Origin: a virus
Virus record (IMG/VR): IMGVR_UViG_3300002835_000734
Location: 1-30,994 of that record
DNA: 30,994 nucleotides
Strand: one strand, 5' to 3'
How positions within the stretch are numbered: the first letter of the stretch is position 1; each line of letters begins with the position of its first letter. Made by a program: the position numbers and the translations under genes. The notes beneath the pieces were generated by a model. It was not told where the DNA came from and searched no databases. It saw only the letters and a program-made list of their open reading frames with translations. Positions 3,129 through 25,245 of this stretch are shown piece after piece.

Positions 3129-6100
3129 TTAAGCAAATGTCGCTCCGACTGTATACCAGTCAGTTGAAGTCGGTGCTACGTATTGTAATGTTGCGCCGGC
3201 TGAGTGTGAGTACGCCGTGTTAACTGTTCCGCCATTGATATCAGCACCTGTATTAGGCCAAACCGAAAGAGCGTTAGCAGACGTATTAGTGATAGTGATT
3301 ATCATGCCAGGAGTAGCTACTGGTAATTTTACCCCAGTATTCAATAGTGGTACTACTGTACTGACTACATTTATTTCTTTAGTAAGAGCAACTGCGGTCC
3401 CTTGAGTGAGTCCTAACGCAATAATACCTGTCTCTACTGAACGAATATGGTATCCGGTCGCAACAATATTTGCACCTGAGATAGTGTTGCCGGCTGCTGT
3501 AATATTGCCAGAGGCTGTAATAAATGCAGTGGTAACGTTTCCGGATACAGCAAGTGAAGTGAGAGTACCAACACTTGTAATATTAGGTTGAGCAGCAGTT
3601 GTTACAGTACCTGCCGTGGTTGCGCTTGTCGCAGAACCAGCAGTAGCAACACTTAGGTTTGCAACTTGAGTTGTACTTGTAACTATGAATGGAGCAGTGC
3701 CGGTAGCTACATTAGATATTAACTGAGGAGCAGTTACGTTTGCGGTAGCAAGTACTCGTGCCGTTCCCAAATTACCCACATTAGCATTACCGGAAGCACT
3801 CAATGTGCCAGTTACAGAGAGAGTGTGTCCTGGATTAGTATTAGCAATACCAACATTGCCAGTACTTGCTACTCTCATCTTTTCAGTAGGGACACCACCT
3901 TGCGCTGCGTTTGCAGTATTGAATACAATCGCACCAGGTGCCGAACCTGATCCTGACGTATATGTAGCATCAACAATAGAGGTGATAGATGCAGCAGTAT
4001 TAGGACTGAATCCATCCCAACCTCTAAAATTAATTTCGCCCAACTGATCACCATTTAATACTTCGGTGTAAGTGGTAATGTTGCCTCTATATCTTTCAAG
4101 CGAAACATCATATGATACAGCAGCAGTAGGTCCAAAATACGCACCAGATACCGTCGACGGTGTAATGGTTGTAACAAAATTAGTTCCATCTGATTTAGAT
4201 AGATTACCGATAACATTACCGACAAACGTAGTTGCAGTTAGACCACCATTTGCTAAATTAGCACTAAATGCTGTATTTGAGTTAAGTGCATAGTTGCCAT
4301 TTGCAGTAGCAGAGATAAACGCCGGATAATAAGTACCAGTTGATCTCACGTTATTCAATACTGCCGCTGCGTTAGTTGCTGAAGTTGCTGTAGTTGCTGA
4401 ACCTGCGGTTGCTGCATTTAAGTTTGCAACCTGAGTAGTTGAGGTAACCACAAGCGGAGCAGTACCAGTAGAAACATTTGAGATAAATTGAGGAGCAGTA
4501 ACGTTAGCAGTTGCAAGTACTTGTGCTGTGCCTAGATTGCCTACGTTAGCATTACCTGATACACCTAATGTACCTGTTACATTGGCACCTGTTGATGTAG
4601 CAGTGATTCTAGTAGTACCAGCTACACCTAAGTTAACATTTCCACCAGCTGCGGTAACTACGACATTTGAAGTACCGTTCTGTAGCAAACCACTGTTGAT
4701 AGTAGTAATATTACCAGTAGTAATGATTGCTGTTGCAGTACCTAAGTTACCTACGTTAGCATTGCCTGTTGCGTTGATTGTGCCATTACCAAACACTATA
4801 TTTGCTGTTACGTTACCTACGGTTAACCCAGTTACCGTTCCGACAGAAGTGATATTTGGTTGTGCGTTTGTTGTTACTGTACCAGCAGTTGTAGCAGAAC
4901 CAGCAGTTGTAGCAGAACCAGCAGACGTTGCAAATGTTGCGTTAGCAACAGTACCAGTAACATTAGCTCCGGTTAGATTTGTTAAGTTTGCACCATTCCC
5001 GGAAAATAAGTTAGACGTAATTGTTCCTGTAGTAACAGAAACGTTGCCGGCGCTGATAGTTCCACTTACCAATAACGTAGTTAAAGTACCTACACTCGTG
5101 ATATTAGGTTGTGCGTTTGTTGTTACTGTACCGGCGGTTGTTGCTGAACCAGCAGTTGTTGCAGACCCGGCCGTAGCAACGCTCAAGTTTGCAACTTGAG
5201 TTGTACTTGTAACTATGAATGGAGCAGTACCAGTTGCTACGTTAGATATTAACTGAGGAGCAGTTACGTTTGCGGTAGCAAGTACTCGTGCAGTCCCTAA
5301 GTTGCCTACGTTAGCATTACCAGTAACATTTAATGTAGTGTCTATAGCAAGTGAAGTTAGCGAACCAACACTCGTAATGTTTGGTTGAGCAGCAGTAGTT
5401 AATGTACCGGTAATATTTGTTGCAGTAATGTTACCTGCACCAACATTGCCGGTTACCGTCACCGCACCGGCTGATAGAGTGCCGCTAGTTTTATTAAAGG
5501 TTAAATTAGCGTTACCTGCATAAGTCGAGCCACCGTCATTGAAAATAACTTGAGAATTAGCGCCTTGTGCAGGAACTAGAGTTGCAGTGTCCCAAGTTAG
5601 ATTGCCACTACCATTAGTTCTTAAGAATGCATTTGCGACACCGCCGGTAATGATGACGTTGCTATTTGGTCCTAAATTACTTACTCCAGAAACATTTAGT
5701 CCAGTTAATGTACCTACGCTAGTGACATTAGGTTGTGCAGCAGTTGTTAAGTTGCCGGCAAGCGATGTTGCTGATATATTTCCTGCTGTGATGTTTCCGG
5801 TAACATTGGCATACCCTGCAATGTTAGCTCCTGCATTGGTTACTACTAATACGTTAGCGGTACCACCTGACGTAATTCTAACATTGCTATTATTGTCTAC
5901 TCTTACTTCAGAGGTTCCGTTGATAATAAATGAACCAGTACTTACTGAAATGTTTGTTAATAAACTACCGTCACCTTGGAAGAAGTTTGCTCTAGCAAGA
6001 TTGCCTAAGTTAGCGTTGCCTGATGTGATATTACCGGTAACACCAATTGAGGTTAGAGTGCCAACCGATGTAATATTTGGTTGAGCAGCAGTTGTCACTG

Positions 6101-8216
6101 TACCGGCAGTAGTTGCGCTTGTAGCAGCGCCAGATAGGGCACCGACAAACGTAGTTGCAGTAATAGAGTTGTTTGATAGATTAGCAGTTAGGCCAGTACT
6201 TGTTAATTCTGCTACATTGCCTGTTGCTGCATTTGCAAAAACAATGAAGTTATTTCCTGTACCTGCGGCTACATTGATGTTATCTGCAACGTTAGCATAC
6301 GCAACGTTCAAGTTACTAACACGAGTAGTAGATGTTACTGTCAATGGAGCAGTACCAGTTGCTACGTTTGAGGTTAATGTACTTGCGACAACCGCAGTAG
6401 TTGCATTTAAATTGCCAACGTTAGCATTTGCGGTTACTGCAACTGAGCTTAGTGTACCAACACTAGTGATATTTGGCTGTGCTGCTGTTGTTACTGTGCC
6501 GGCGGTAGTAGCTGCACCACTTAATGCACCAACGAATGTAGTTGCAGTGATGGAGTTATTTGATAAGTTAGCGATAAGACCTGTACTTGTTAGTTCTGCA
6601 ATATTGCCTGATGCTGCGTTTGCAAAAACAATGAAGTTATTTCCTGTTCCGGCAGCTACACTCATCAAATCAGAGACATTTGCTTGAGCAACATTCAAGT
6701 TTGCAACACGAGTAGTCGAAGTGACTGTTAATGGAGCAGTACCAGTTGCTACGTTTGAGATTAAAGTACTTGCAGTAATGTTGCCGGCTGTTGCAAAGTT
6801 GCCTGATGTAGTTGTGCCGGTAACTCCTAATGATGTTAGTGTGCCAACTGATGTAATGTTTGGTTGAGCAGCAGTTGTTACAGTACCCGCTGTAGTGGCA
6901 CTTGTTGCAGCACCAGACAGAGCGCCTACAAACGTAGTTGCAGTGATAGAGTTGTTTGATAAATTAGCAGTAAGACCTGTGCTTGTTAATTCTGTTACGT
7001 TACCTGTCGCCGCATTTGCAAAGATAAGGAAGTTATTTCCCGTTCCAGCCGCTACACTGATGAAGTCGGCAACGTTTGCATAATTAACATTTAGGTTTGC
7101 AACACGAGTTGTACTCGTGACTACGAGTGGAGCAGTGCCGGTTGCAACGTTACTAATCAATTGGGGTGTAGTTACGTTTGCAGATGCAAGAACTTGCGCT
7201 GTTCCTAGATTACCTAGGTTAGCGTTACTAGTTGTACTGATGACACCGACAACGGTAAGTCCAGTAGTAGTAAAGTTAGCTCTTGCAGTACCGTTTACAA
7301 ATACAGATACGTTACCAGCAGCAGCAGGAATGCTTACGTTTGAGTTACCGTTTGCTAATGAACCAACTAAGTTACCAGCAGTTATGTTTCCGGTAACTGC
7401 TAATGCGCCGGAGATGTTTGATCCAATAGAAGTTACGACCATTGTGGTAGTACCAGCAATCACAATATTTAGATTGCCGCCAGCATCACTGATGTTAGCA
7501 TAACTGGTGCCATTTAAAATTCTAGTATTTGCTAATGCAGATACATTAGTAAGATTGCTGCCGTCTCCGTAGAAGAAGTTAGCATTTACAATATTAGCGT
7601 TAGCGTTGCCTGTAATATTAGCAGATGCAGCAGAGATCGCAGCAGTGGCGTTTACATTCCCTGCATTAACATTTGCCGTTACATTTGCATTAGTGGTTAC
7701 GTTTAGGTTACCAGTAACATTGGCATTGGCATTTACTACTAACGTATTACTAATTATATTGTTGGATATTAAATTGGCTGTAGTAGATATATTACCTGTA
7801 AAACTAGCAGTGTTCCCGTTAATCTGTGCGTTAACATTTACTGTTTGAGCAGTCAATGTACTTGATAATTGTAAGTTAGCAACTCCTGTAATAGTTGACG
7901 GGAGGTTGATGACAAGAGGGGTAGAGCCTTGCGTTACAACTGCTAGTGGTCCAGGTGTTCCGGCTCCGGCAGAAAGATTTAAAGTAGTACTTTCTGCTCT
8001 AACTTGCGCAATATTAGCACTGATAATAACGTTTCCAGTAGGAGAGTTAACTGTAGTACCAGTGCCTGGAACTCTGTTAACTGACAACACTGCCTGTTCT
8101 TGCAAGCCAGAAAATAATTCTGTAAAGTTTTCTTGTACCTTTTGGAATGCTGTTCTGATTGCATCCGCATTTGGATCATCCGGGAAACTACCAAAATCTA
8201 TATTTTTTTGGGCCAT
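3129..8216 (-). CDS. Giant repeat-built tail fibre / long tail-fibre-like protein (1695 aa)
   Basis: This is a 1695-residue fibrous protein. Residues 1-40 (around DFGSFPDDPNADAIRTAF) form an attachment head like that of T4-like aquatic phage fibres. Most of the rest is low-complexity beta repeat rich in Asn, Ala, Thr, Gly and Val. The module TT[AN]AQPN[IV]TSVG[TS] occurs eight times, the module NV[AS]TGTAP followed by VTSTT[RQ]V six times, and variants of NANVGNLGTA many times. Nearer the C-terminus come a globular region around RYRGNITTYTEV and GDQLGEINFRGWDG, then a NVGIANTNPG motif that often precedes fibre tips. The last ~100 residues (PGMIITITNTSANALSVWP to DWYTVGATFA) probably form the receptor-binding tip. 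No S74 peptidase chaperone is visible. It probably mediates host binding. A late promoter lies 29 nt upstream, and AGGA is 9 nt before the ATG. Confidence 0.85.
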   Translation of the reverse strand: MAQKNIDFGSFPDDPNADAIRTAFQKVQENFTELFSGLQEQAVLSVNRVPGTGTTVNSPTGNVIISANIAQVRAESTTLNLSAGAGTPGPLAVVTQGSTPLVINLPSTITGVANLQLSSTLTAQTVNVNAQINGNTASFTGNISTTANLISNNIISNTLVVNANANVTGNLNVTTNANVTANVNAGNVNATAAISAASANITGNANANIVNANFFYGDGSNLTNVSALANTRILNGTSYANISDAGGNLNIVIAGTTTMVVTSIGSNISGALAVTGNITAGNLVGSLANGNSNVSIPAAAGNVSVFVNGTARANFTTTGLTVVGVISTTSNANLGNLGTAQVLASANVTTPQLISNVATGTAPLVVTSTTRVANLNVNYANVADFISVAAGTGNNFLIFANAATGNVTELTSTGLTANLSNNSITATTFVGALSGAATSATTAGTVTTAAQPNITSVGTLTSLGVTGTTTSGNFATAGNITASTLISNVATGTAPLTVTSTTRVANLNVAQANVSDLMSVAAGTGNNFIVFANAASGNIAELTSTGLIANLSNNSITATTFVGALSGAATTAGTVTTAAQPNITSVGTLSSVAVTANANVGNLNATTAVVASTLTSNVATGTAPLTVTSTTRVSNLNVAYANVADNINVAAGTGNNFIVFANAATGNVAELTSTGLTANLSNNSITATTFVGALSGAATSATTAGTVTTAAQPNITSVGTLTSIGVTGNITSGNANLGNLARANFFQGDGSLLTNISVSTGSFIINGTSEVRVDNNSNVRITSGGTANVLVVTNAGANIAGYANVTGNITAGNISATSLAGNLTTAAQPNVTSVGTLTGLNVSGVSNLGPNSNVIITGGVANAFLRTNGSGNLTWDTATLVPAQGANSQVIFNDGGSTYAGNANLTFNKTSGTLSAGAVTVTGNVGAGNITATNITGTLTTAAQPNITSVGSLTSLAIDTTLNVTGNANVGNLGTARVLATANVTAPQLISNVATGTAPFIVTSTTQVANLSVATAGSATTAGSATTAGTVTTNAQPNITSVGTLTTLLVSGTISAGNVSVTTGTITSNLFSGNGANLTNLTGANVTGTVANATFATSAGSATTAGSATTAGTVTTNAQPNITSVGTVTGLTVGNVTANIVFGNGTINATGNANVGNLGTATAIITTGNITTINSGLLQNGTSNVVVTAAGGNVNLGVAGTTRITATSTGANVTGTLGVSGNANVGNLGTAQVLATANVTAPQFISNVSTGTAPLVVTSTTQVANLNAATAGSATTATSATNAAAVLNNVRSTGTYYPAFISATANGNYALNSNTAFSANLANGGLTATTFVGNVIGNLSKSDGTNFVTTITPSTVSGAYFGPTAAVSYDVSLERYRGNITTYTEVLNGDQLGEINFRGWDGFSPNTAASITSIVDATYTSGSGSAPGAIVFNTANAAQGGVPTEKMRVASTGNVGIANTNPGHTLSVTGTLSASGNANVGNLGTARVLATANVTAPQLISNVATGTAPFIVTSTTQVANLSVATAGSATSATTAGTVTTAAQPNITSVGTLTSLAVSGNVTTAFITASGNITAAGNTISGANIVATGYHIRSVETGIIALGLTQGTAVALTKEINVVSTVVPLLNTGVKLPVATPGMIITITNTSANALSVWPNTGADINGGTVNTAYSHSAGATLQYVAPTSTDWYTVGATFA
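6060..7240 (-). repeat. Three ~390-bp direct repeats inside the tail fibre gene
   Basis: Near-identical DNA recurs with a period of about 390 bp. The segment encoding NNFIVFANAA-type sequence falls near 6240, 6630 and 7020, and the segment encoding SNNSITATTFVGALSG near 6142, 6530 and 6927. Each unit encodes about 130 residues. Shorter ~180-bp relatives lie near 3600-3790, 4390-4560 and 5150-5340. One stretch of about 40 nt is identical between the copies near 3660 and 5190. These copies are likely substrates for homologous recombination that lengthens or shortens the fibre. Confidence 0.85.
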
Positions 8217-8329: not shown

Positions 8330-10909
8330 TTACTTTTTGATTCCTGCAAGAGTTGCCCAATCCTTAGGACTGTCAATCATGCGATCATCTTGACCTGCAA
8401 TAACAGGAATTGTTGTTTGACCAGTTGACTTAGGCTTGTTTAAGCCACCGGCAATTACTTTAGTCATAAAGTCAATGTCTTGTTGAAATGAAGCGTCTGT
8501 TCCTTTACCAGGACCAGAACCTACTTGATTTGCCCACTCATCAACCTTTTCTCTCTTGTCTTTCTTGTCATCATATTCGATGTCTTTCTTTACTTTTTCG
8601 CCGGCTTTTTCTGCTTTGTCATCGTCTTTACCTTTATGACCTTCGTCATGTTCGATATCCTTAGCGACTTTCTTAGCAGCCTTTTCAGCTTTGTCATCTT
8701 CTTCTGATTGTGATTCTTCTGCAATGAACGAAAGCTTTCTGAAAAGATTAGCGAACGATTCAGCAACAGTTTCCTCTTCTTCGTCATCAGATTCTTGAAC
8801 AGCTTGATCGCTCATTCCGTCTTCTATGTCTTGACCGGCATCAGCTTTAGCAAGTGATGCATTTGCAGCAGCATTGCCCTGCGTATCATTTGATGAGTTA
8901 TCGGCACCTGAGTCTGGAGCATTAGCTTCAGAAACTTCAAATTCCATTTGGTCTTCTGACTCTACTTCGTCAACTACTTCTTTTGAACCACATGAGTGAC
9001 CAGCTTCCATCATCCCACCGCATTCGTTGCATGATTGTTCATTGGCAGGTTGATCATAATCACTGCATTCGCAGTCGCCGTCACATCCGCAATCTTTCTT
9101 GCTAGTTTCTTCATGATTACCATAAAGCTGTTCTTCGTCGCCTTCTTCGTCTGCATAGTCTTCTGCGCCATCAGATTGAATGCCTGATAATTTCTGCATC
9201 AAGCCCATCATACCATCATGACCGTCCACTACACCAATGTCTACGCCGCCTGCACCAATTTCGTCTGGTGCACCATGTGAAGGTTGAACTGACATTGCAC
9301 TTGAATGTGTATCTGCATTGTCATCACCGAAGAGACCGAGACCTGCGTTCTTTACAAATGCAAGAAGATGTTCTGCTTCTGCATCTTGTGCAGTAATAGT
9401 CACTGAGTCAGGTGCATTTTCTTGGCCTTTTGAGATTGATACCGAAAGACCTTCGTTTAGTAAGTCATTAAGTTGGCTATCCCATGATTCAAACGCATAT
9501 TCATTCACTTTAGCATCGTATCCTGTACGATCGGTGAATGTCTTGCCACCTACTGAGAACTTGCCGCCCTTTGGAGTCTTTGCAAGAGCAGCAGTGAATG
9601 CATTTCCTTCATCAAATTCAGCTTCCATAGCAGGCATTGCTGCGCTTGCCATACCAGGAACTGTTGCTGCTGGCATTGCAGGAGCAGTTTCATATACGCC
9701 CTGACCATAGCACTCATCAAGACCATCTTTGTATCCAGCGTGATAAGCACGAGCTTCTTCAAGATCATCATAATGCTTGATACGATTCGCAGCGCCACGC
9801 AATCCATCAGCGCGGCCTTCATGACGAGCAGCAGCAATACGGCCATTCATGCCTTCTTTAACTGGTGCTTTCTTTTTGTCGGCTGCTGCCTTCTTCATTG
9901 GTTCTTTCTTGTTGCCATCCTTGTCGATATCAAGGAAATCTGGCTTTGCTTTCTTATTCATAGTTTTTCCTTCTAATGTTGTTGGACTACGGCCAGCGCC
10001 TAAGCCAGCTCCCTTAGTATCTACGCCAGCAGATGATGGAAGATCGCCCTCTTTAACTTTTTTCTTATTCTTGTTGTCAAGCATGCCGCGCTTATTAGCA
10101 GTTGCCCATGCAATATCTTCTGCTTCGCCTTTTGACTTGCCTAATTTCTTTTCAGACTTTTCAATGTGCTTGACCATGCGATCAACCTTTTTACCTTCTT
10201 TCATGCCAACAGCCTGTTTAGCTTTGTCTGCCATACGACCCATAAATGATTTTTGTTGTGGTCGTTCTATCGCTTTGTTGGAGATATCATTTGCTGATTT
10301 GGCTGCTTTCTGATCGGCATGATACTGCTGCCATAGTTGTAATCCTAATTTAATCGGGTCTTCGTTGTAATTCCAAGTAGATTTTAACTGTTCAAGTTTC
10401 TTACTCATCTGGGGTAAGCTACCGACAACTCCGCTGTTTTCTTGCTGACGGATTCTATCGTAAATTTTATAAATCTCTTTGGCCAATTCTTCTTTAGAGC
10501 CGCTAGCAGATGATTCTTCTTGCATTGCTTGTTGACCTGCCTGCATTTGATTTGGGTTAGGTTGACCAGCAGCAGTAGCCTGCGGCTGTTGTCCGGGCTG
10601 AGTTGGTACAACAATCTGAGCTTTACCTTGTGCTGCTAAATCAGTCAATGCTTTTTGCATTGCTTGTCCTGCAGGAGAAGTATCATTGATGTTTAAGAAG
10701 CCTGCGCCAGTCGACTGGGTATCACCTTGCTTACCTACAACAGGAATAGGCTTTTGCATTGCCATATTTTCAAAAACATCCTTAAGTGATGCTGGCTTAT
10801 TTGCTACTTTCATCGGAGGAGTAGTTGAATCTTCTCTCAACATTCTTTTCTTAGTGACTTTAGGAGCAGTAGCTTCTAACTCAGCTAGTTTTTGCATAAT
10901 GTCTTTCAT
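8330..10909 (-). CDS. Large acidic, probably head-internal protein with Cys cluster (859 aa)
   Basis: I do not recognise a named family. The protein is long, hydrophilic and mostly disordered, with acidic tracts toward the C-terminus and Lys-rich stretches. Residues 1-10 read MKDIMQKLAE, ending in Leu-x-Glu like the capsid-targeting peptides cut by the T4 prohead protease. A DxDxDG loop (D327, D329, D331, G332) resembles a calcium-binding motif. Cysteines at 607, 609, 613, 615, 627, 630 and 640 form a metal-binding-like cluster. A block around KVDRMVKHIEKSEKKLG and IAWATANKRGMLDNKNKK near residues 235-285 is a pattern seen in other phage proteins. The ATG at 10909 is preferred over the TTG one codon earlier because GAGG lies 8 nt before it. 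It follows the 206-aa gene by a few bases and ends in a terminator. A head core or internal protein is an inference. Confidence 0.7.
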   Translation of the reverse strand: MKDIMQKLAELEATAPKVTKKRMLREDSTTPPMKVANKPASLKDVFENMAMQKPIPVVGKQGDTQSTGAGFLNINDTSPAGQAMQKALTDLAAQGKAQIVVPTQPGQQPQATAAGQPNPNQMQAGQQAMQEESSASGSKEELAKEIYKIYDRIRQQENSGVVGSLPQMSKKLEQLKSTWNYNEDPIKLGLQLWQQYHADQKAAKSANDISNKAIERPQQKSFMGRMADKAKQAVGMKEGKKVDRMVKHIEKSEKKLGKSKGEAEDIAWATANKRGMLDNKNKKKVKEGDLPSSAGVDTKGAGLGAGRSPTTLEGKTMNKKAKPDFLDIDKDGNKKEPMKKAAADKKKAPVKEGMNGRIAAARHEGRADGLRGAANRIKHYDDLEEARAYHAGYKDGLDECYGQGVYETAPAMPAATVPGMASAAMPAMEAEFDEGNAFTAALAKTPKGGKFSVGGKTFTDRTGYDAKVNEYAFESWDSQLNDLLNEGLSVSISKGQENAPDSVTITAQDAEAEHLLAFVKNAGLGLFGDDNADTHSSAMSVQPSHGAPDEIGAGGVDIGVVDGHDGMMGLMQKLSGIQSDGAEDYADEEGDEEQLYGNHEETSKKDCGCDGDCECSDYDQPANEQSCNECGGMMEAGHSCGSKEVVDEVESEDQMEFEVSEANAPDSGADNSSNDTQGNAAANASLAKADAGQDIEDGMSDQAVQESDDEEEETVAESFANLFRKLSFIAEESQSEEDDKAEKAAKKVAKDIEHDEGHKGKDDDKAEKAGEKVKKDIEYDDKKDKREKVDEWANQVGSGPGKGTDASFQQDIDFMTKVIAGGLNKPKSTGQTTIPVIAGQDDRMIDSPKDWATLAGIKK

Positions 10910-10913
10910 CAAC

Positions 10914-11534
10914 TTATCCTCTTCCTGTCTGCGGCTTAGCCGGGCGAGTGACCTTGCTCATTGGACTTTCTTTGCCCATCGAGGCCATCTGCGATTCTGG
11001 CTTGAAAGGATCAAATGCGTTGGGTGTCTTCTTACCTTCGTAAGGAATGTCGATTGTATTATCTTTCATTTGATCTTGAATGCTATCAAGATAGCTATTG
11101 CCGTATGCCTTAGCAGCTTCCTTAGCGCCTGGCTGTTCTTCTAGTTCTTCGTGATTCAATACAGGACTATGTGAAGCTTCGTTAGCATAGCCTTCGCTCT
11201 CGCTATTGATGCTGTCATCAAAGTTAGTGCCAACAACACGAACATAGTTTACATTATAACCCAACAACTGCGCAATTTGCTGAATCATAGGTTCATTTGC
11301 AGGATAGCGAAATTCTGCTTTGATGATATGAACTGGTTCGTTCTCTAAATCAGGAAACCCGTAAGGGCTTTTCTGAATCGGCGTTGAAACGGGATCAGAA
11401 ATCTTGATTGGGTCAAACTTGTTGAGATTATACTTGAACATGTCAAGAAAATTCTTATCAACGTGTCCGGCGATCTTAATAGTGTAATTGTAAGTGTGAA
11501 CACTCTCAACAATGTATTGTTTTAAACTGCGCAT
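10914..11534 (-). CDS. Hypothetical protein with capsid-targeting-like N-terminus (206 aa)
   Basis: No family is recognised with certainty. The N-terminus, MRSLKQYIVE followed by Ser, closely parallels the ten-residue targeting peptide of T4 internal proteins (MKTYQEFIAE followed by Ala), including the Ile-x-Glu cleavage signal. Residues ~15-115 look folded (mixed beta/alpha, with a segment EPMIQQIAQLLGYNVNYVRV). Residues ~120-206 are polar and Pro/Lys rich, probably disordered. AAGGA lies 7 nt before the ATG and a GATAAATA late promoter lies 27 nt upstream. It is followed immediately by the 859-aa gene, whose N-terminus has a similar layout. A role as a protein packaged in the prohead fits, but this is inference. 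Confidence 0.65.
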   Translation of the reverse strand: MRSLKQYIVESVHTYNYTIKIAGHVDKNFLDMFKYNLNKFDPIKISDPVSTPIQKSPYGFPDLENEPVHIIKAEFRYPANEPMIQQIAQLLGYNVNYVRVVGTNFDDSINSESEGYANEASHSPVLNHEELEEQPGAKEAAKAYGNSYLDSIQDQMKDNTIDIPYEGKKTPNAFDPFKPESQMASMGKESPMSKVTRPAKPQTGRG

Positions 11535-11570: not shown

Positions 11571-12050
11571 TTACTCTTTGTTTTTAGTGTTAAACATCTT
11601 AAGTAGGTCATTACGATCAAGCGATTGACCTGTTCCCAATGGGGTAGATTCTATTTCTTCGGTTTTAGCTGCATTTTTAGCATCTAATTGTGCTTTTTTC
11701 ATTTGCAAATCAAGCATTTTGAGCTTCTTATTAATCTTTGCAGTCTTAGCAGTAATAGCGTGTCCTAGCATACTACTTGCACTATTGAAGATTTCTGAGC
11801 TAAAGCGTGATTCTACTTGCATACCCAAGTCCATCAAGTCTTTGTAACTTGAGGTAGCCATCTGTGCAAGCTCGTCCATCTCAGTATCAGCAGCTTCTAA
11901 CCCTTTTACTTGGGGCAACGCAGCTTCAATTTTATCTAATGTGCTAAGTGCGTTTTCAGTTACTTCTTCCGTCATATCCGGAAGTGGAATAGTTAGGTCA
12001 TTTTCGACAGACGAAGAAAGTTCAAAAAGTTGTTCTAGTTTTTTTGTCAT
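11571..12050 (-). CDS. 16: Terminase small subunit, gp16-like
   Basis: This 159-residue, mostly helical protein has the architecture of T4-type small terminase subunits. It has an acidic, variable N-terminus (1-50). A central helical hairpin follows (~65-125), with SSYKDLMDLGMQVE and then a Lys-rich helix KINKKLKMLDLQMKKAQ. The C-terminus ends in the short segment LDRNDLLKMF. T4 gp16 is 164 aa; it oligomerises on concatemeric DNA and stimulates the large subunit gp17 during packaging. gp17 is not in this window. The ATG is exactly 5 nt after an ACTAAATA late element and has no Shine-Dalgarno, which predicts a leaderless mRNA. The gene follows the head completion gene gp4. The call rests on size, helix pattern and remembered sequence resemblance. 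Confidence 0.75.
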   Translation of the reverse strand: MTKKLEQLFELSSSVENDLTIPLPDMTEEVTENALSTLDKIEAALPQVKGLEAADTEMDELAQMATSSYKDLMDLGMQVESRFSSEIFNSASSMLGHAITAKTAKINKKLKMLDLQMKKAQLDAKNAAKTEEIESTPLGTGQSLDRNDLLKMFNTKNKE

Positions 12051-12064: not shown

Positions 12065-12499
12065 TTACTTCTTCCCATTTCTGAAAATGTCATCTTCAGT
12101 TATTACACGAAAGCCGAACCCCTGAGCTTTGCAATACTGCGCCGCAGCTTGCCATTTGGCATGGTTAATTGCAACAACCATTCTATCTTTAGCATTTACT
12201 ACCTTACTCTCAATAACGCTTTGCTTTTTAGGTTTGATTTCAACTACTTCTGCTATTTTTTTACTGAACTTGTTCTCATAAACTACAAAGAAATCAGGAA
12301 CATATATGGTTGGTTTTCCAGTCAATGGATGCTTATATGGAATTCGCATTGACTCACTAGCCCAATATATGACATTGCTGTTAGTATCACAGAATGTCAT
12401 AAAGGTAAGCTCCCAACCAGAACGATATCTGGGTTTATGATTACCTATATACTTTTGTGGATTTTTAGGAACATATATCCCCTGAGCATATCTAGCCAT
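12065..12499 (-). CDS. 4: Head completion nuclease, gp4-like
   Basis: This 144-residue protein matches the T4 gp4 (gp50) head completion family in length and along its whole sequence: it starts MARYAQGIYVPKNPQKYIG and has PRYRSGWELTFM, IPYKHPLTGKPTIYVPDFF and VVEIKPK. The residues E30, D69 (in VPDFF) and E87-I-K89 form a PD-(D/E)xK-like nuclease pattern. In T4, gp4 acts with gp2 and gp13/gp14 on filled heads so that tails can join. The stop of the 118-aa gene is 1 nt before this ATG, and no clear ribosome binding site is present, so translation is probably coupled to that gene. Confidence 0.92.
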   Translation of the reverse strand: MARYAQGIYVPKNPQKYIGNHKPRYRSGWELTFMTFCDTNSNVIYWASESMRIPYKHPLTGKPTIYVPDFFVVYENKFSKKIAEVVEIKPKKQSVIESKVVNAKDRMVVAINHAKWQAAAQYCKAQGFGFRVITEDDIFRNGKK

Positions 12500-12500
12500 A

Positions 12501-12857
12501 TCACATGACTACGTTTCTCTGAACTGGTTCATTAGGCCTTGGAATGATACCAACACCATATAAGGATGCTTTTGGTCTAAATGTGTTGAGATAGTAGCAT
12601 ATGACTTGATTCATCTGCAATTTATTAGTTTTACCTTTAATAGTTGCTAATAAATCAAGAACATTGTAGTTTCCTTCTTGCGCAATTCTAAACAAAAGTG
12701 ATGCAAACGTACTGGCTTCAGTTTTGTCGTTTGAGTTACCCAAGAAAAATGAGTACACTACATCCCAGTCTGTAGCATTCACTCTGAGTCTTGTGGAGTA
12801 AAAATTATCAAAAATTCTTACTGCGCTGTCGGTGGAAGTAATAGTAAATATAGCCAT
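12501..12857 (-). CDS. Conserved T4-like hypothetical protein (118 aa) upstream of gp4
   Basis: No function recognised. The 118-residue product has a folded N-terminal part (VRIFDNFYSTRLRVNATDWD), a middle with FASLLFRIAQEGNYNVLDLL, and an end with QMNQVICYYLNTFRPKASLYG. It resembles a short conserved protein I associate with T4-like phages of aquatic bacteria. In T4 the gene next to gp4 is the baseplate wedge gene 53, but this product is shorter and I see no convincing gp53 features. The ATG lies 5 nt after a perfect TATAAATA late element and has no Shine-Dalgarno, so the mRNA may be leaderless. It is cotranscribed with gp4. Confidence 0.7.
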   Translation of the reverse strand: MAIFTITSTDSAVRIFDNFYSTRLRVNATDWDVVYSFFLGNSNDKTEASTFASLLFRIAQEGNYNVLDLLATIKGKTNKLQMNQVICYYLNTFRPKASLYGVGIIPRPNEPVQRNVVM

Positions 12858-12862
12858 AATAC

Positions 12863-12870
12863 TATTTATA
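12863..12870 (-). promoter_or_regulatory. T4 late promoter TATAAATA (perfect consensus), 5 nt before ATG
   Basis: On the minus strand TATAAATA is followed by GTATT and then the ATG at 12857. This is the exact T4 late consensus. Its usual start point falls on the A of the start codon, so it should give a leaderless mRNA for the 118-aa protein and gp4. Confidence 0.78.
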
Positions 12871-12886
12871 CTATATGTAACGGTCT

Positions 12887-14146
12887 TTATATGAATATGG
12901 GATTTGGATCTGATCCAAACGGAGCTTCTACTGGGAATCCGGTAACATTAGAATTACCGTTAAATTGATTTCCTGCTGTCGGCTCGTTCGTTATTACTGT
13001 AGGGGAGCGTGCTGCTCCTATAGTAGGTGATCCCCCTAATCCGGCGAAGCCAGGAGTTTGACTTGCGTTTGGAATATTGAACGGTGTATTTCTATTCAAT
13101 GGGACGTTTGTAGCTGAGTCACCGAACATTTGATTAAGTGCTAGTTGAGCATTTGTATTTAAGTTTGGAAATTTAGTATTGTTATACTGCTGTTCTGCTG
13201 CGGCAGCGGCAAATGTTGAACTTCCGGATTGCAGTGATCGGACTGAGCCGCCTGCGCCATCTACTAGCCCGCCTTGCCCTAATACAGTACCGTTGGTACC
13301 TGTTGGGGTAATTGGACTTGGTGTGCGGTCATATGTTGCTTCGCTGCCGAACCCGGTTACGATATCTCCTGGACTTCTTCCATCTAAGTTACCAGCGTTA
13401 TAGACTACAGTTTCATAATCTATAGTCATTCTATTTTCCATAGTACCGTTTCCGGAATCATATTTGTAAGTATCGTGTGCAAAATTAGTGATCATCGGAT
13501 TTATAAGCGTGTACGCAGTAAAGTCATGTTGGTTAAAACCAAAGACTGTTATGTTATTAAAGAACGGTAGTTTAACGCCTGCGTCAATGAAATCTTCATT
13601 ACTGCCTCCAGAAAAACCCCAATTGGTCCACCCTGCATCATCTTCATAGATGTCTCTATAATTATATGATTCTGTAGTTCGTAGAGGTGAGTCACCATCC
13701 TCGTCAGTAGCAGAATTAGCACCGCGTGTGGCTCTCAGCACATTAGAAGGCTTTGAGCCGTCTGTGTAGTAATATTTGTAATATGCTTCCCACAATTTGT
13801 TTATAGCGTTGCCGTTATCATCATGAAAGGATATTTCTATAGGATCATATTTGATTTTAGTTTGCACTATTCTTTTTCTGTTGTATTGATTCATTTGATG
13901 AGTGGTAAAATTGAATGAAGGTAGTTTAACTTCCTTCACTAAAATACCATAGTTGGCATCTGAAAAATACGCCTGAGGATTAATATCAAAGAATGTGTGG
14001 AATAGAAATTTGAATTTAGGGGTGTTTGCATACGAATTAGGTTTAAATATTTTAGAGGCATGTGTATAGTCTCTAAGGATTTGGCTGCCGAAGAAATCTC
14101 CGGCAGCACTATTCTGTAAACTTTCACCCCAATTACCTAAAGACAT
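12887..14146 (-). CDS. Tail-tube-fold protein (gp19/gp54-like) with long low-complexity C-terminus
   Basis: This 419-residue protein directly follows the tail tube gene. Residues ~40-125 (YANTPKFKFLFHTFFDIN, VKEVKLPSFNFTTHQMNQYN, then TKIKYDPIEISFHDDNGN) have the layout of T4 tail-tube superfamily proteins, in which two beta-sandwich segments are joined by a Lys-rich strand. T4 gp19, gp48 and gp54 belong to this family. A further barrel strand pair is visible near FGFNQHDFTAYTLINPMITN. Residues ~270-419 are Gly/Asn/Pro/Gln rich and probably disordered. It could be the tube initiator or cap (gp54/gp48-like) or a second tube component; I cannot decide which. Only 15 nt separate it from gp19 and no promoter is visible between them, so both share the gp19 late mRNA. 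Confidence 0.72.
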   Translation of the reverse strand: MSLGNWGESLQNSAAGDFFGSQILRDYTHASKIFKPNSYANTPKFKFLFHTFFDINPQAYFSDANYGILVKEVKLPSFNFTTHQMNQYNRKRIVQTKIKYDPIEISFHDDNGNAINKLWEAYYKYYYTDGSKPSNVLRATRGANSATDEDGDSPLRTTESYNYRDIYEDDAGWTNWGFSGGSNEDFIDAGVKLPFFNNITVFGFNQHDFTAYTLINPMITNFAHDTYKYDSGNGTMENRMTIDYETVVYNAGNLDGRSPGDIVTGFGSEATYDRTPSPITPTGTNGTVLGQGGLVDGAGGSVRSLQSGSSTFAAAAAEQQYNNTKFPNLNTNAQLALNQMFGDSATNVPLNRNTPFNIPNASQTPGFAGLGGSPTIGAARSPTVITNEPTAGNQFNGNSNVTGFPVEAPFGSDPNPIFI

Positions 14147-14881: not shown

Positions 14882-17800
14882 TTAGTCTTGTGATAGCCCA
14901 TTTGCTAATCCTGCAATTTCTCCAGTATTGAAGACACGAACCGGAATGTAGATGAACTCAATTGCCTTAACTGGCTCAATTGCAACATCTACCCAAAGCT
15001 CGTTTCTATCGATACGGGCAGGAGTGTTATTTGATTCGTCGCAAACTACAAGATAATCGTAGATGCCTCTCTTAGCAACAAGATCAACTAGAAGTGTTTG
15101 GACAACCCCTGAAATCTCTTGTCTTGTCAGCGCATCATTTGGTTCAAAGATGAACGGTCTTGCTGCGACTGTCAATTGACGACGAAGATAAGCAATAAGT
15201 CTTGCAACGTTAATTCTGTCAAGTGCTGACTGTGAATTAAAGCTTGATTTATTACCGTAGTTCAACAAACCATTTCCAGTGAAGAACACGAGTGGGTTGA
15301 TTTGATTAGTATATAATACGTCACGAATTCCTATTCTTGTCTTGATTGGAACAAACTCACCTGTAATTGAATCAATGTAACCGATTGACGCTGCGTTATC
15401 AATTACCCCACGACGAGTACCTGCTGGGGCGAACCAAGGATAAGCGATACTATCGTTGCGAAGAATAGTTCTAATCATCATGTGTGATGGGGGAACTGCT
15501 ACTAAATTACCACGCAAGTCATTAGTAATCCCTGATGGATAGAATAGACCCATATAAGTATCACGGGTTACTAGACCTTCTTCTCCGGTTGATGATACGC
15601 CAGCAGCATTTGTTGCCCACGCTTGAATTGCAGTTGCGTCATCTGGCAGTCTCATTGGTGTGTCACCGATAATAAATCCAGTTTGACCACGATCATTGTT
15701 AAGAATAATCATGTTAGGTTGCAATTCAGGATAATTCGGAGTTGCAATCAAGTTGAATGGATTGTCATCATCACGAATTGCACCGTTAGAATCAATTGCT
15801 GCTCTCATTGCTTGAACAACCATTGCTCTCTGGGCATTACGACCCATATAAGGAGCACCGCTTGACTCTAGACCACTTACTGAAACCCATGCGGCCTTCT
15901 CAACTGGAAGTGTCTCATCCGGGAATTGAGTTGTGTTAAAGTAGTTAGTGCGGTATTGCTTAACATTGTACCCTGAACGACGAGTGTTGAACAATAGCAT
16001 ACCTACTGGATAAAGTGACGTAGTTGGCGCATCCAAATCCAAATAATTGCTAGATAGCAAGCTCACAATCGATGGGATAGGATCGTCAACTGGGTTAGTT
16101 GTACCGTTAAGGGCCCAACGAGCGTCAGCGAATACTACGCCGGTTGAACTTGTCTGGTTAGTATTATCAATTCTTACCCACTGATCAACGGTATCAACTT
16201 GCTGCCAACGATTAATGATTGGATAATTGTCTAAGTCAGATGTATCGATCCAAATGTCGCCGTATGCCAAAGCAGTTCCGTCTGATTGTACAGTTGGTTC
16301 ACTTGCACTTACGATTGGTCCGTTTGGATCCGTTAAGTTTGTACCGCTTGGGAGTGGGAAACCACTAGCGTCATAATTGACATTCTTATATCCTCTCCAT
16401 CCAGCTGATGTGTTAACCATGATATCTACTTCGTCAACAACTGAGTAGAACCAATTAGTTAGGTTAGCAGGAGCAGCTACCGGTGCACCTTCGTTTGCAG
16501 TCATATCAAATTCAACCCAGTTTGATAACTGAGTAGTATAGTTTGCTACTGCTACGCCACTAACTGGTGTAATAGCTGTGACTGCACCAGAAACAACTGC
16601 TGTTACTTCAACAACAAGATTATTAGTAGGCGCTGTGCCGCCCATAGCACTTCCTAAGAAAGTTACGGTATCACCGACTGCAAAACCTGATCCTGCATTA
16701 GGAAAGCTTGTAGGGTTAACGTAATATTTTCCATAAGCTGTTCCAACATTAATAGATAGGTTTGCACCTAATCCACTACTTGATGATTGCACTGGCTGGA
16801 AGACAAAAGGGTCACCAAATCCGTTTTTCACTCCTAATGTTGATCCAGGAATGAATCCTGCGGCGCTTAGTAATGATGGAGTAGTGGGCAAGCCTGTGGT
16901 GTTGCTTCTATCATTCATGTAGATTTCACCACCTTGGGTATGTGTAATCTGAATTGCTCCTGCATCGGTTACAGTAGCAGTTGTATAAGGGATAGCAGTA
17001 CTATTCCACTCATTTACAAAATCTGTAGCATCAGTGTCATCACCTAATGTTATTGAGTAAGTGCCACTAATTCCTGTTCCCGGCAAAGACACTATCACCT
17101 CAAGAGAATAGGGCCCAACAGTAAATGTTGGATTAGTAACGCTGCCCGTAACTATCGTTGGACCGGTTGCAAGTCTTTCCCAATAATATAGAGGAGGAGA
17201 AGCCTGAGAAGCAAATGTAGCTACATTAAAATCATACTGAGTATATACTGTTCCGGCTGGAATATTCTTACCACCAGTTGAATCAAGTGCATTAGTAGCA
17301 GCAACGTCAGAAGTAGCGTAGGATACTGTTTTAGGTACCCAAGTATTTAAAGTACTATTCCAAACAGAAATTGCAGTGTTTAGGCCAGATCCAGCTGTTC
17401 CGACTTTGAGCCAAACTGAACCACTTGGTCTAGGGAATGTTTGACCAGTAGTCCAAAGTGGCTGTTCAGCAGAAGTTCCATAATCGAAACCTGGCTGATA
17501 GTATGTACCAGCAGAAATACCCAAGTCAGCAAGAAGTGTTCCTGTTCCTGCAACAGTCAATGAAAATGGTGTAGTTACACCCAATTGACCAGCATTTTGA
17601 GTAGAAAACAATTGCAAACTTTGGCTTGTTCCTGTTCCTGCTGCTCTAGCCGACAAGAACTGGAAGTTTAGTAAATTGATTAGTGAGGCCATATAACTCA
17701 CAGTATTATCAGGTGCGGCTGGAACAGTAAGTGTTGCGCCGAAACTACCGTTGATGTTAATAGTAAGAGTATCACCTGCAGTCAATGTACTTACTGAATT

Positions 17801-23358: not shown

Positions 23359-25188
23359 TTAGTACTTTGCTCTAATGCCGATATACCCTGCTCTAGGATA
23401 TGTACCATATCCCTTTGCAGTCTCATAACTTTCATTGAAGACATTTTCAACACGCCCGGTCAATTCAAGCGATGCAGTCAAGGGATAACGAACAGTTGCG
23501 TCTACTAATACATAAGAATCAATTTTGTTTGTATTAGCAGCATTCTCCCAAGCCTTACCCACGTAACGAATGGTTGCACCTGTTGCAAGTCCGTTCGTCC
23601 ATGTATAATCGACACGAATTGAGGTAGAGTGTCGTGGACGACGAGGAAGGTCAAGTCCAGTATCCTTGTCAGTAGATTCAGTGTAGGTGTAGTTCGCAGA
23701 CACCGCTAGATTAGTCAATGGAACAATCGTAGCAATGACTTCTGCGCCCTGTGCTGATGTAGTACCTAGGTTACTGTAAGTGTAGGTCCCAAGATCAAAA
23801 TCAATTTGATTGTTAGTGTTGCGCTTAAAATAGTTAGCAGTAACATCAAACTGTTCATTGAACTTATGGGTGACTCCTACATCAAAACCCTTTGCTGTTT
23901 CTGCAAGAAGGTCATCGTTTCCATAGTCTCCGTACAATTGATAGAGAGTAGGGGCCTTGAAGCCTTCACCATAGCTTGCTCGTAGAGTAGTATCACCTAA
24001 CGCATATACAGCATCGGCACCAAAGGTAGTTTCGTTTCCGTAACCGCTATGCCAATCACGGCGGGCACCAGCATTAACTGATAGATTAGATAGTGGCTGA
24101 GTTGCAAGTTGGCCATAGATGCTATCAATATTTGCTGTAGCTTGATTACCACCACGAAAGCCAGAATAGTTGTACTTAGTTTCAAAGTCATTTGCCTCGT
24201 GTTCGTAACCAAAGATAGCTTTGTTAGAACCTAAATCAACTGTACCCTGATATTCAAATCGCTCATTGATTCCTGCACTGCGAAAGTTTTCAGTGTTATT
24301 GGTTTCATAGTTGTAGCGATTTAGCTTTACGCGGCTATGTGATGCACGATTCTTGAACTTGCCATCAAAAAACGAAGCATTAATACCAGCGTAACCGCTT
24401 AGGCTATCAGTATTTGAATACTCACCGGTGTCAGCAAGAATATAGCGAGGAGCAGGGAAGCCGTCAAAACTGAAACGAGTTTCTAGATAATTGCTACGCA
24501 AATCAATATTGACATTATCAGATAGACGAATGCCTACTTTAGCATTTGCTGCACTAGCCTTGAAGCCATCACGCTCACTACCATTAGCAGCAGCAGAAAT
24601 ACCATCGCTGCGTTCATGTCCGCCACCTATCAGATAAGAGACAGCGCCGACAGTATCGCTAAGGTCAGCATATGCACGAGCAGTATCAGAGTAGCCATAC
24701 TCTCCGCGAACACGACTAGTAAGATTATCGCTAGGAGCACGAGTAGTCAAACTTACCACTCCGCCAACTGCTTGGCTTCCCCAAAGAACAGAACTGGGGC
24801 CGCGTAATACCTCAATACGGTCAATATTGCCAGTGACCAAACTGCCAAAGTCAAAGCTAGCTGCTGGATTCGCAATATCGTTCATTCGCACACCATCTAG
24901 CAATACTAGAGTCTGTGCGCTTTCTGCTCCGCGAATTCTAACACTGGAAACGCTTCCGGTATTGCCCGAACGGTCAATCGTAATACCTGGGAGAGTGGCA
25001 AGTAGTTCTGCAATAGTTGCAGTCTGCCTATTTGTAATTTCATTACTATCAACTATAGTAACTTGAGTACCGGTATTTGCTATATTTGTAGGAGTGCGCA
25101 ATGCAGTCACTACGATTTCTGTCTGTGCATAAGTTGTAGACGAAAGCATTAATGCTGCGGTGGTGGCAAAAAGTTTAAATGTTTTCAA
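23359..25188 (-). CDS. btuB: BtuB-like TonB-dependent outer-membrane receptor
   Basis: With the TTG start at 25188 (preceded by AAGGAAA) the product is 609 aa. It has a signal peptide (MKTFKLFATTAALMLSS, cleavage likely after A21) and a TonB box near 23-30 (TEIVVTAL). A complete plug domain spans ~50-150, with IAELLATLPGI, SVRIRGAES, LVLLDGVRMND and DRIEVLRGPSSVLWGSQAVG. A full 22-strand-type barrel follows, ending in Tyr (IRAKY), as outer-membrane barrels do. Such receptors import cobalamin or other chelated nutrients using TonB energy. The TonB box and plug wording resemble BtuB; cobalamin as ligand is inferred. The gene has its own early promoter and terminator, no room for a cobalamin riboswitch, and no visible frameshift. 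An earlier TTG at 25245 lies inside the promoter and is rejected. A membrane receptor in a lytic-phage structural region is unusual. Confidence 0.93.
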   Translation of the reverse strand: MKTFKLFATTAALMLSSTTYAQTEIVVTALRTPTNIANTGTQVTIVDSNEITNRQTATIAELLATLPGITIDRSGNTGSVSSVRIRGAESAQTLVLLDGVRMNDIANPAASFDFGSLVTGNIDRIEVLRGPSSVLWGSQAVGGVVSLTTRAPSDNLTSRVRGEYGYSDTARAYADLSDTVGAVSYLIGGGHERSDGISAAANGSERDGFKASAANAKVGIRLSDNVNIDLRSNYLETRFSFDGFPAPRYILADTGEYSNTDSLSGYAGINASFFDGKFKNRASHSRVKLNRYNYETNNTENFRSAGINERFEYQGTVDLGSNKAIFGYEHEANDFETKYNYSGFRGGNQATANIDSIYGQLATQPLSNLSVNAGARRDWHSGYGNETTFGADAVYALGDTTLRASYGEGFKAPTLYQLYGDYGNDDLLAETAKGFDVGVTHKFNEQFDVTANYFKRNTNNQIDFDLGTYTYSNLGTTSAQGAEVIATIVPLTNLAVSANYTYTESTDKDTGLDLPRRPRHSTSIRVDYTWTNGLATGATIRYVGKAWENAANTNKIDSYVLVDATVRYPLTASLELTGRVENVFNESYETAKGYGTYPRAGYIGIRAKY

Positions 25189-25216
25189 AATAATTTCCTT
25201 TCTTATTTGAAGTATA

Positions 25217-25245
25217 GTTATAACATGTTTATAGAACCTTGTCAA
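25217..25245 (-). promoter_or_regulatory. Sigma70-type promoter of the TonB-dependent receptor gene
   Basis: Minus strand: TTGACA (25240-25245), 17-bp spacer, TATAAC (25217-25222). The HNH gene stop codon TGA lies inside the -35. The predicted leader is about 22 nt, with AAGGAAA before the TTG start. Confidence 0.88.

Follow-up and report, generated by a model that had tools for sequence, protein, structure and literature searches.

The question raised by this locus is whether two adjacent genes, encoding proteins of 206 and 859 amino acids (aa), specify proteins that are loaded into a phage head behind T4-type N-terminal capsid-targeting sequences (CTSs). Both genes lie in the IMG/VR virus record IMGVR_UViG_3300002835_000734 (positions 1 to 30,994), the whole 30,994-base stretch of which was analyzed and is called the window below; it derives from a T4-like jumbo phage, of whose genome it covers a fragment. 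The gene coordinates and starts (MRSLKQYIVE and MKDIMQKLAE), each with [LI]xE at residues 8-10, proved to be as given in an earlier note on this DNA; an in-frame TTG would lengthen the 859-aa protein by one residue. Judging by its sequence, the 206-aa protein very probably behaves as T4 CTS proteins do, carried within the phage head behind a ten-residue address tag, whereas the 859-aa protein is probably a multi-site substrate, the N-terminal cut of which would fall at Glu26 and not at Glu10. The two genes and the parts of the shorter protein are as follows.

10914..11534, minus strand: 206-aa protein, a putative internal head protein with a T4-type targeting and processing N-terminus (N-terminal conservation; homologues in Atu_ph07, PA5oct, and MIJ3)
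11505..11534, minus strand: MRSLKQYIVE, residues 1-10 of the 206-aa protein, a candidate CTS with a predicted cut after Glu10 (conservation; a low-confidence helix at residues 4-11 precedes the folded domain)
11229..11492, minus strand: residues 15-102 of the 206-aa protein, a predicted ferredoxin-like domain (beta-alpha-beta-beta-alpha-beta; AlphaFold2 model, Foldseek)
8330..10909, minus strand: 859-aa modular protein with many [VLI]xE[GAS] sites, a putative multi-site prohead-protease substrate (motif enrichment, conservation, model)

Taken alone, an [LI]xE that ends at residue 10 is weak evidence. Of the 1,282 genes called in four large relatives, 22 have it (G001 5/372, G002 6/246, G003 7/395, and G004 4/269), no more commonly than at neighbouring positions, and four of the 22 are the homologue of the 206-aa protein itself; in PA5oct, it occurs in 12 of 392 genes, the highest of 37 positions tried. 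The bare rule was discarded as evidence for its lack of enrichment in the relatives, and the pattern was therefore tested by conservation. The gene counts in these position scans and in the motif scans of relatives rest on our own simple open reading frame (ORF) caller, which can misplace starts and for this reason missed the 206-aa homologue in Atu_ph07.

Homologues of the 206-aa protein were found in 195 matching stretches in IMG/VR, 80 of which were kept, and conservation was counted over 50 distinct N-termini, Atu_ph07 and PA5oct among them. Residue 4 is Leu (48/50) or Phe (2/50), residue 7 is Tyr, Phe, or His in all 50, residue 8 is Ile or Leu in 49, and residue 10 is Glu in 49. Neither Asp nor Gln occurs at position 10, either in this set or in five distant homologues, while residue 9, where eight or more residue types occur, shows the greatest variability within residues 1-20 (2.50 bits). 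The five distant homologues were obtained by a profile search in five of eight jumbo phages bearing an 18-base tag that is described below; outside the N-terminus they are 26-41% identical, and all five start with M[KR]xFxxYLxES and contain L8-x-E10-S11. When the 3,124 genes called in nine genomes were searched for the full-register motif, it was found only in the homologue of the 206-aa protein in six relatives and in the two T4 proteins starting with MKTYQEFIAE, against 0.1 expected, a figure that is descriptive since the pattern was composed after both groups were known.

In the T4 internal protein (IP) IPIII, targeting depends mainly on residues 4 and 7 and processing on residues 8 and 10, and Asp10 stops processing only (PMC9026906, section 2.6). 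The 206-aa protein has targeting residues 4 and 7 within a putative N-terminal propeptide of the 10-19 residues seen in T4, and its family has L/I-x-E at 8-10 (49/50 N-termini and 5/5 distant homologues, PA5oct and MIJ3 excepted). With T4 IPII and IPIII it shares the ten-residue register, a large hydrophobic residue at 4, an aromatic one at 7, Ile or Leu at 8, Glu at 10, and a small residue at 11, and a gp21-type protease is present in six of six large relatives. It differs in having its own fold, in showing no detected sequence relation to these proteins, and in that its cleavage and injection are what we infer. It also differs from the T4 IPs, which are accessory and variable cargo, in being the product of a conserved core gene of a syntenic family, and it is therefore not classed as a T4 IP. 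The PA5oct and MIJ3 homologues start with MKSFRDYYDAS, keeping the targeting pair (residues 4 and 7) and losing I8 and E10; the PA5oct homologue, with targeting residues kept and cleavage residues lost, offers a ready-made test of whether targeting and processing are separable, as published. The Atu_ph07 homologue (L001 12001-12756) is annotated from position 12088, while homology and an MKTLQDYLTES start are found from 12001; the annotated start is probably wrong.

The AlphaFold2 model of the 206-aa protein is modest, with a mean predicted local distance difference test score (pLDDT) of 67 and values of mostly 75-87 at residues 11-100. It consists of the low-confidence helix, the ferredoxin-like domain, and a poorly predicted tail, and the predicted cut falls between the helix and the start of the folded domain at residue 15. 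Foldseek assigned the model an ordinary ferredoxin-like or S6-like fold with low template modelling (TM) scores, and the fold search returned six phage proteins without known function (E ≤9e-5), including the Atu_ph07 homologue. The window protein had no match in PHROGs or Pfam, and a sequence search of the PDB returned no relative. Forty-five homologues gave weak library matches only, among them phrog_14802, a virion structural protein, in 16 of the 45 (best 0.0012). A greedy identity filter at 93% reduced the 84 distinct proteins of the family to a set of the window and 44 loci. Scans seeded with the PA5oct and Atu_ph07 homologues yielded no intermediate relatives. The DNA-end protector gp2 of T4 was rejected as a homologue (hhalign probability 0.1%); the T4 query is one that we take to be gp2 from its place on the T4 map.

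The 859-aa protein presents a different picture. Its candidate sites were followed in a 36-row alignment comprising the window and, to limit the size, a subset of 35 from 55 references.

10880..10888, minus strand: LAE, residues 8-10, the site named by the earlier note; not conserved (Glu in 6 of 36 homologues)
10829..10840, minus strand: LRE|D, residues 24-27, the conserved N-terminal site (Glu26) of the window's clade (N-terminal survey and alignment)
10046..10057, minus strand: VKE|G, residues 285-288, after a helical module (Glu 36/36; pLDDT <50 from residue 286; matches the place of QGVAE|A in L378)
9851..9862, minus strand: VKE|G, residues 350-353, directly before the helical module 354-406 (Glu 36/36; model)
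9449..9460, minus strand: LNE|G, residues 484-487, between helix 472-485 and strand 489-493 (Glu 35/36; model)
8924..8935, minus strand: VSE|A, residues 659-662, in a disordered stretch (Glu 36/36; P1' mostly Asp)
8756..8767, minus strand: VAE|S, residues 715-718, directly before helix 720-729 (Glu in 25 of 25 non-gap rows; model)
8714..8725, minus strand: IAE|E, residues 729-732, directly after helix 720-729 (Glu in 21 of 23 non-gap rows; P3 Leu or Ile)

The earlier note had proposed a ten-residue T4-like CTS and a cut after residue 10 for both proteins. The proposal is supported for the 206-aa protein, in which residues 4, 7, 8, and 10 all fit, and fails for the 859-aa protein, in the family of which position 10 is Gln in 24 of the 36 rows; the conserved sites there are Glu26 and several internal ones. 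Among these is the FIAE further along the chain that the note had also pointed out, located at residues 728-731. Fifty-one of the 55 distinct N-termini contain [LI]xE[ASGD] exactly once in the first 45 residues, at Glu15 in most and mostly at Glu24-35 in the window's clade (MLRE26|DS in the window), and the rate of this motif at the N-terminus (0.021) is five times that in the rest of the chain (0.004). Glu26 lies farther in than the 10-19 residues of T4.

With respect to the whole chain, [VLI]xE[GAS] was observed 599 times in 73 sequences of the family, compared with 207 ± 13 after shuffling, a spread that understates the error as the sequences are related. When Glu was replaced in the motif, the Asp version was depleted (55 vs. 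186 expected), the Gln version was as expected (100 vs. 94), and the Lys version was mildly in excess (323 vs. 234). A genome-wide scan for the motif returned the known substrates gp22, gp21, and gp23 as the top three proteins in T4, and in G001-G006, the six large relatives, the homologue of the 859-aa protein ranked 2, 2, 4, 3, 2, and 4. Glu residues at the window sites are kept at 0.85 vs. 0.46 for other Glu residues of the protein (p 0.0015; 36-row alignment). The model (mean pLDDT 55, 469 of 859 residues <50) consists of helical modules linked by disorder, and Glu26, 287, 352, 486, 661, 717, and 731 lie in linkers or at module edges. Only weak matches were obtained in PHROGs and Pfam, and tblastn against named phages gave no match.

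Summed over all genes of the freshwater relatives (G001-G006), [VLI]xE[GAS] reaches 1.3-1.6 times expectation, with the Asp version at approximately 1.0; this excess is not seen in T4, PA5oct, or Atu_ph07. A second family with a strong excess starts with xxxEGYYPMG or xxxESYHPMG.

G001 12088-13614, G002 112004-113431, G003 281891-283522, G004 121306-123996, G005 93458-95878: second [VLI]xE[GAS]-rich family

The genomic setting is consistent with a prohead protease acting on both proteins. Peptidase_S77 (the gp21-type protease) and Gp23 capsid genes are present in all six large relatives, and in all five genomes compared a gp22-like multi-site gene lies between the protease and capsid genes; in the capsid homologues called in G001-G004, every [LI]xE site falls at 7-43. 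The gene for the 859-aa protein is tens to hundreds of kilobases from this cluster. Its own neighbourhood in the window comprises a tail-sheath-sized gene, tail-tube genes, and a head-closure nuclease, followed by the 159-, 206-, and 859-aa genes, and this order is kept down to PA5oct, with a downstream ORF after the 206-aa ORF in 144 of 147 loci. The two upstream neighbours are the following.

11571..12050, minus strand: 159-aa protein, phrog_16202, with L-F-E at residues 8-10 and Asp/Asn substitutions at 10 (PHROGs and N-terminal conservation)
12065..12499, minus strand: head-closure nuclease-like protein (phrog_218 head closure, 2.5e-41), presumably of the T4 gp4/50 type

The 159-aa gene, directly upstream and not listed by the earlier note, which had named two such N-termini, was examined as a possible third example and set aside, since Glu10 gives way to Asp and Asn: position 10 is Glu in 53, Asp in 6, Asn in 4, and another residue in 4 of the 67 N-termini, a few of these being register shifts. 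On the opposite side, the 859-aa gene adjoins a highly repetitive 1,695-aa tail-fibre-like protein (window 3129-8216).

In the PA5oct record, gp282, the homologue of the 206-aa protein (hhalign probability 97%), and the next gene product, gp281, are annotated as structural by electrospray ionization tandem mass spectrometry (ESI-MS/MS), and their genes stand in the same order directly before the terminase. gp281 holds the position of the 859-aa protein and is linked to it by position rather than sequence homology. The packaging of both proteins in the virion, as proposed by the earlier note, is borne out solely through this annotation of the PA5oct homologue and its syntenic neighbour. The MIJ3 paper reports no more than four proteins by mass spectrometry, and the MIJ3 label is therefore not independent proof.

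The sites are thus conserved and Glu-specific, the genes are syntenic with those of annotated virion proteins, protease and capsid genes are present in the relatives, and the 206- and 859-aa genes are conserved core virion genes. We infer from this the following course of head entry, cleavage, location, and ejection or injection, to which, as a whole, we assign a probability of roughly 0.6. The 206-aa protein would be synthesized with a ten-residue N-terminal peptide acting like a T4 CTS, residues 4 and 7 would bring it into the prohead core, and a gp21-type protease would cut it after Ile8-x-Glu10, leaving the folded ferredoxin-like domain in the head. The 859-aa protein, built like beads on a string, would also enter the prohead and be trimmed by the same protease after Glu26 and at the Glu-specific [VLI]xE|[GAS] sites between its modules. 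Both would belong to the core of the virion, as structural or as ejected proteins, and would not be optional takeover factors.

Several observations weigh against this course. Many sites of the 859-aa protein are V-x-E and not the L/I-x-E of T4; LEE385 was found by the motif inside a predicted helix and is probably no site, and no more than 9 of 36 rows retain Glu706. The motif excess is weak in PA5oct gp281 (z 1.8), and in Atu_ph07 the neighbour of the 206-aa homologue does not appear among the top nine listed in the motif scan. No protease was found in 5 of the 11 relatives searched (fragments of 72-171 kb), and the window holds neither a protease nor a capsid gene. PA5oct has the protease and a virion-annotated homologue, yet this homologue, like that of MIJ3, is without I8 and E10; cleavage is therefore not needed for packaging there.

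A conserved N-terminal helix would also account for the constant start of the 206-aa protein. Its N-terminus might be an amphipathic helix that docks on an assembly partner and is never cut, with [LI]xE belonging to the helix, as the modelled helix 4-11, F4/Y7 without I8/E10 in the PA5oct homologue, and the similar LxxLFE start of the 159-aa neighbour, with Asp or Asn at position 10 in 10 of 67 N-termini, would suggest. A docking helix should tolerate replacement of Glu by Asp or Gln, however, whereas in the 50 N-termini and five distant homologues residue 9 is free and E10 is never Asp or Gln, and the folded domain begins only at residue 15; we regard this explanation as rather doubtful. Similar doubt attaches to the 859-aa protein being a prohead core protein like T4 gp22 or gp67, fragmented and mostly lost from the mature head. 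Its Glu-specific multi-site enrichment is second only to that of the gp22-like gene in G001 and G002, and more than one-half of its residues have pLDDT <50, but a separate gp22-like gene stands beside the protease and capsid genes in five genomes, far from the 859-aa gene, and the annotation of the PA5oct counterpart records its detection in virions.

That the two proteins are injected for takeover or counter-defence, the role offered by the earlier note, in the manner of T4 IPI-III and Alt appears very unlikely, despite the CTS-like N-terminus of the 206-aa protein and the matches of CTS-like proteins elsewhere in the relatives to an ADP-ribosyltransferase (PF18760) and a kinase family (phrog_15752). 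According to PMC12373910, T4 IPs have the leader alone in common and vary between phages, unlike the 206- and 859-aa genes, which are core genes in a fixed order; in addition, no effector domain was found in either protein with PHROGs, Pfam, or homologue scans. Their neighbours (tail sheath, tail tubes, and head closure) would suit tail or neck components in which the motifs are a compositional coincidence, which we consider highly improbable given that neither the Glu/Asp contrast nor the N-terminal conservation is compositional.

Returning to targeting and multi-site cleavage as the preferred explanation, the 859-aa family resembles T4 gp22, gp67, and gp68 in its many Glu-specific protease-like sites (by motif), and differs from them in sequence, gene position, folded modules between the sites, and a virion-annotated PA5oct counterpart. 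According to PMC9026906 and PMC5694885, head-internal and ejection proteins of phiKZ and SPN3US are similarly trimmed C-terminal to Glu, although in phiKZ the cut is at S/A-x-E and the propeptides are mostly much longer. If correct, N-terminal peptides and Glu-specific sites would allow the head contents of giant T4-like phages, otherwise obtained from proteomics, to be listed from sequence alone, the T4 targeting rule would extend to an uncultured freshwater lineage, and the ADP-ribosyltransferase and the kinase-like proteins near the capsid gene would become concrete candidates for injected enzymes.

The search for more such N-termini proposed by the earlier note was made in the relatives, as the window is a 31-kb fragment, and the set found has Glu at position 9. 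[FYLIHMW][LI]xE[SAG] with Glu at 9-10 was observed (expected) 4 (0.38), 6 (0.50), 8 (0.54), 5 (0.25), 2 (0.21), and 3 (0.25) times in G001 to G006, respectively, 5 (0.38) times in T4, and once each in Atu_ph07 (0.88) and PA5oct (0.46). Most of these N-termini in the relatives are nine residues long (MRxxEFIxE). Ten of the 28 CTS-like proteins (the 206-aa family excluded) were given a domain scan; single members match ART-PolyVal (ADP-ribosyltransferase, PF18760, 4.7e-14), GH19, and LysM. In G003, three copies in tandem that lie one gene away from the capsid gene match phrog_15752, a host-transcription-inhibiting kinase family. As candidates for takeover, the ADP-ribosyltransferase and kinase-like proteins fit better than the 206- and 859-aa proteins.

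G003 174187-175903 (L180): CTS-like proteins with kinase-family matches, three tandem copies
G004 228075-228461 (L228): CTS-like protein with an ADP-ribosyltransferase domain
G003 43142-44440 (L174): CTS-like protein with a GH19 lysozyme domain

An adjacent pair of genes of approximately 125 aa was also observed, both starting with MRAxEFxxE, several with an FKGYKRK end, but with no further resemblance. In G013 and G014, this pair comes shortly after the gene in the 859-aa position.

G001 16385-17154, G002 106520-107307, G003 275136-275932, G004 117507-118264; L430, L431: MRAxEFxxE gene pair

GVAEG joins the parts of some CTS-like proteins, which are mosaics. An 18-base tag, CAAGGTGTNGCGGAAGGC, occurs in at least 120 stretches of viral contigs, jumbo phages included, 80 loci of which (L310-L389) were analyzed. 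Read as QGVAEG, it is in the same frame in 100 of 100 copies, and 20 of 20 spacings are multiples of three. The genes are often multi-copy, with tags 47-440 aa apart and unrelated modules between them.

L388:514-2280; L336; L378:5301-7883; G004 229968-232448; G005 130100-131782: tag-bearing examples

[LI]xE[SAG] is present in residues 4-30 of 23 of the 52 tag ORFs with a usable start, compared with 115 of 1,250 background genes (p 1.7e-10). In a hand-picked set of 33 from the 80 tag ORFs, mostly with more than one tag, the tag Ala codons are only GCG or GCA, with GCG in 79 of 85 copies vs. 11% of Ala in the same ORFs; DNA as well as protein therefore seems constrained, which is in part selection by the search pattern. 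The S77 protease is present in four, and a homologue of the 206-aa protein in five, of eight large contigs that bear the tag. L378 is a homologue of the 859-aa protein with GVAE joints at two places, one of them, by inspection, at the place of VKE287|G in the window. Pfam matches of the 80 tag ORFs include DUF6321, GNAT acetyltransferases, Gp88, LysM, and deaminase. A text search of open-access literature for GVAEG returned nothing related, and a description elsewhere is possible.

We tentatively suggest, as a conjecture with odds against it, that the 206- and 859-aa genes might form the centre of a system by which freshwater jumbo phages of the T4-like kind load cargo into their heads. Its cargo would carry short N-terminal targeting peptides, either ten-residue M[KR]x[LF]xx[YFH][IL]xES or nine-residue MRxxEFIxE, and many cargo proteins would be in-frame mosaics joined at prohead-protease sites, including the near-invariant QGVAE|G tag, so that one gene might deliver several separate polypeptides into the host. 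The 859-aa family would be one such polyprotein, and the modules look as if shuffled through a DNA-fixed tag.

Elsewhere in the window, positions 23359-25245 encode a complete TonB-dependent receptor (plug and barrel) within the phage contig. Copies 89-100% identical are found in 14 viral loci, and the relative G003 has a different receptor; the window protein may be a receptor decoy, an exclusion factor, or the product of an uptake gene.

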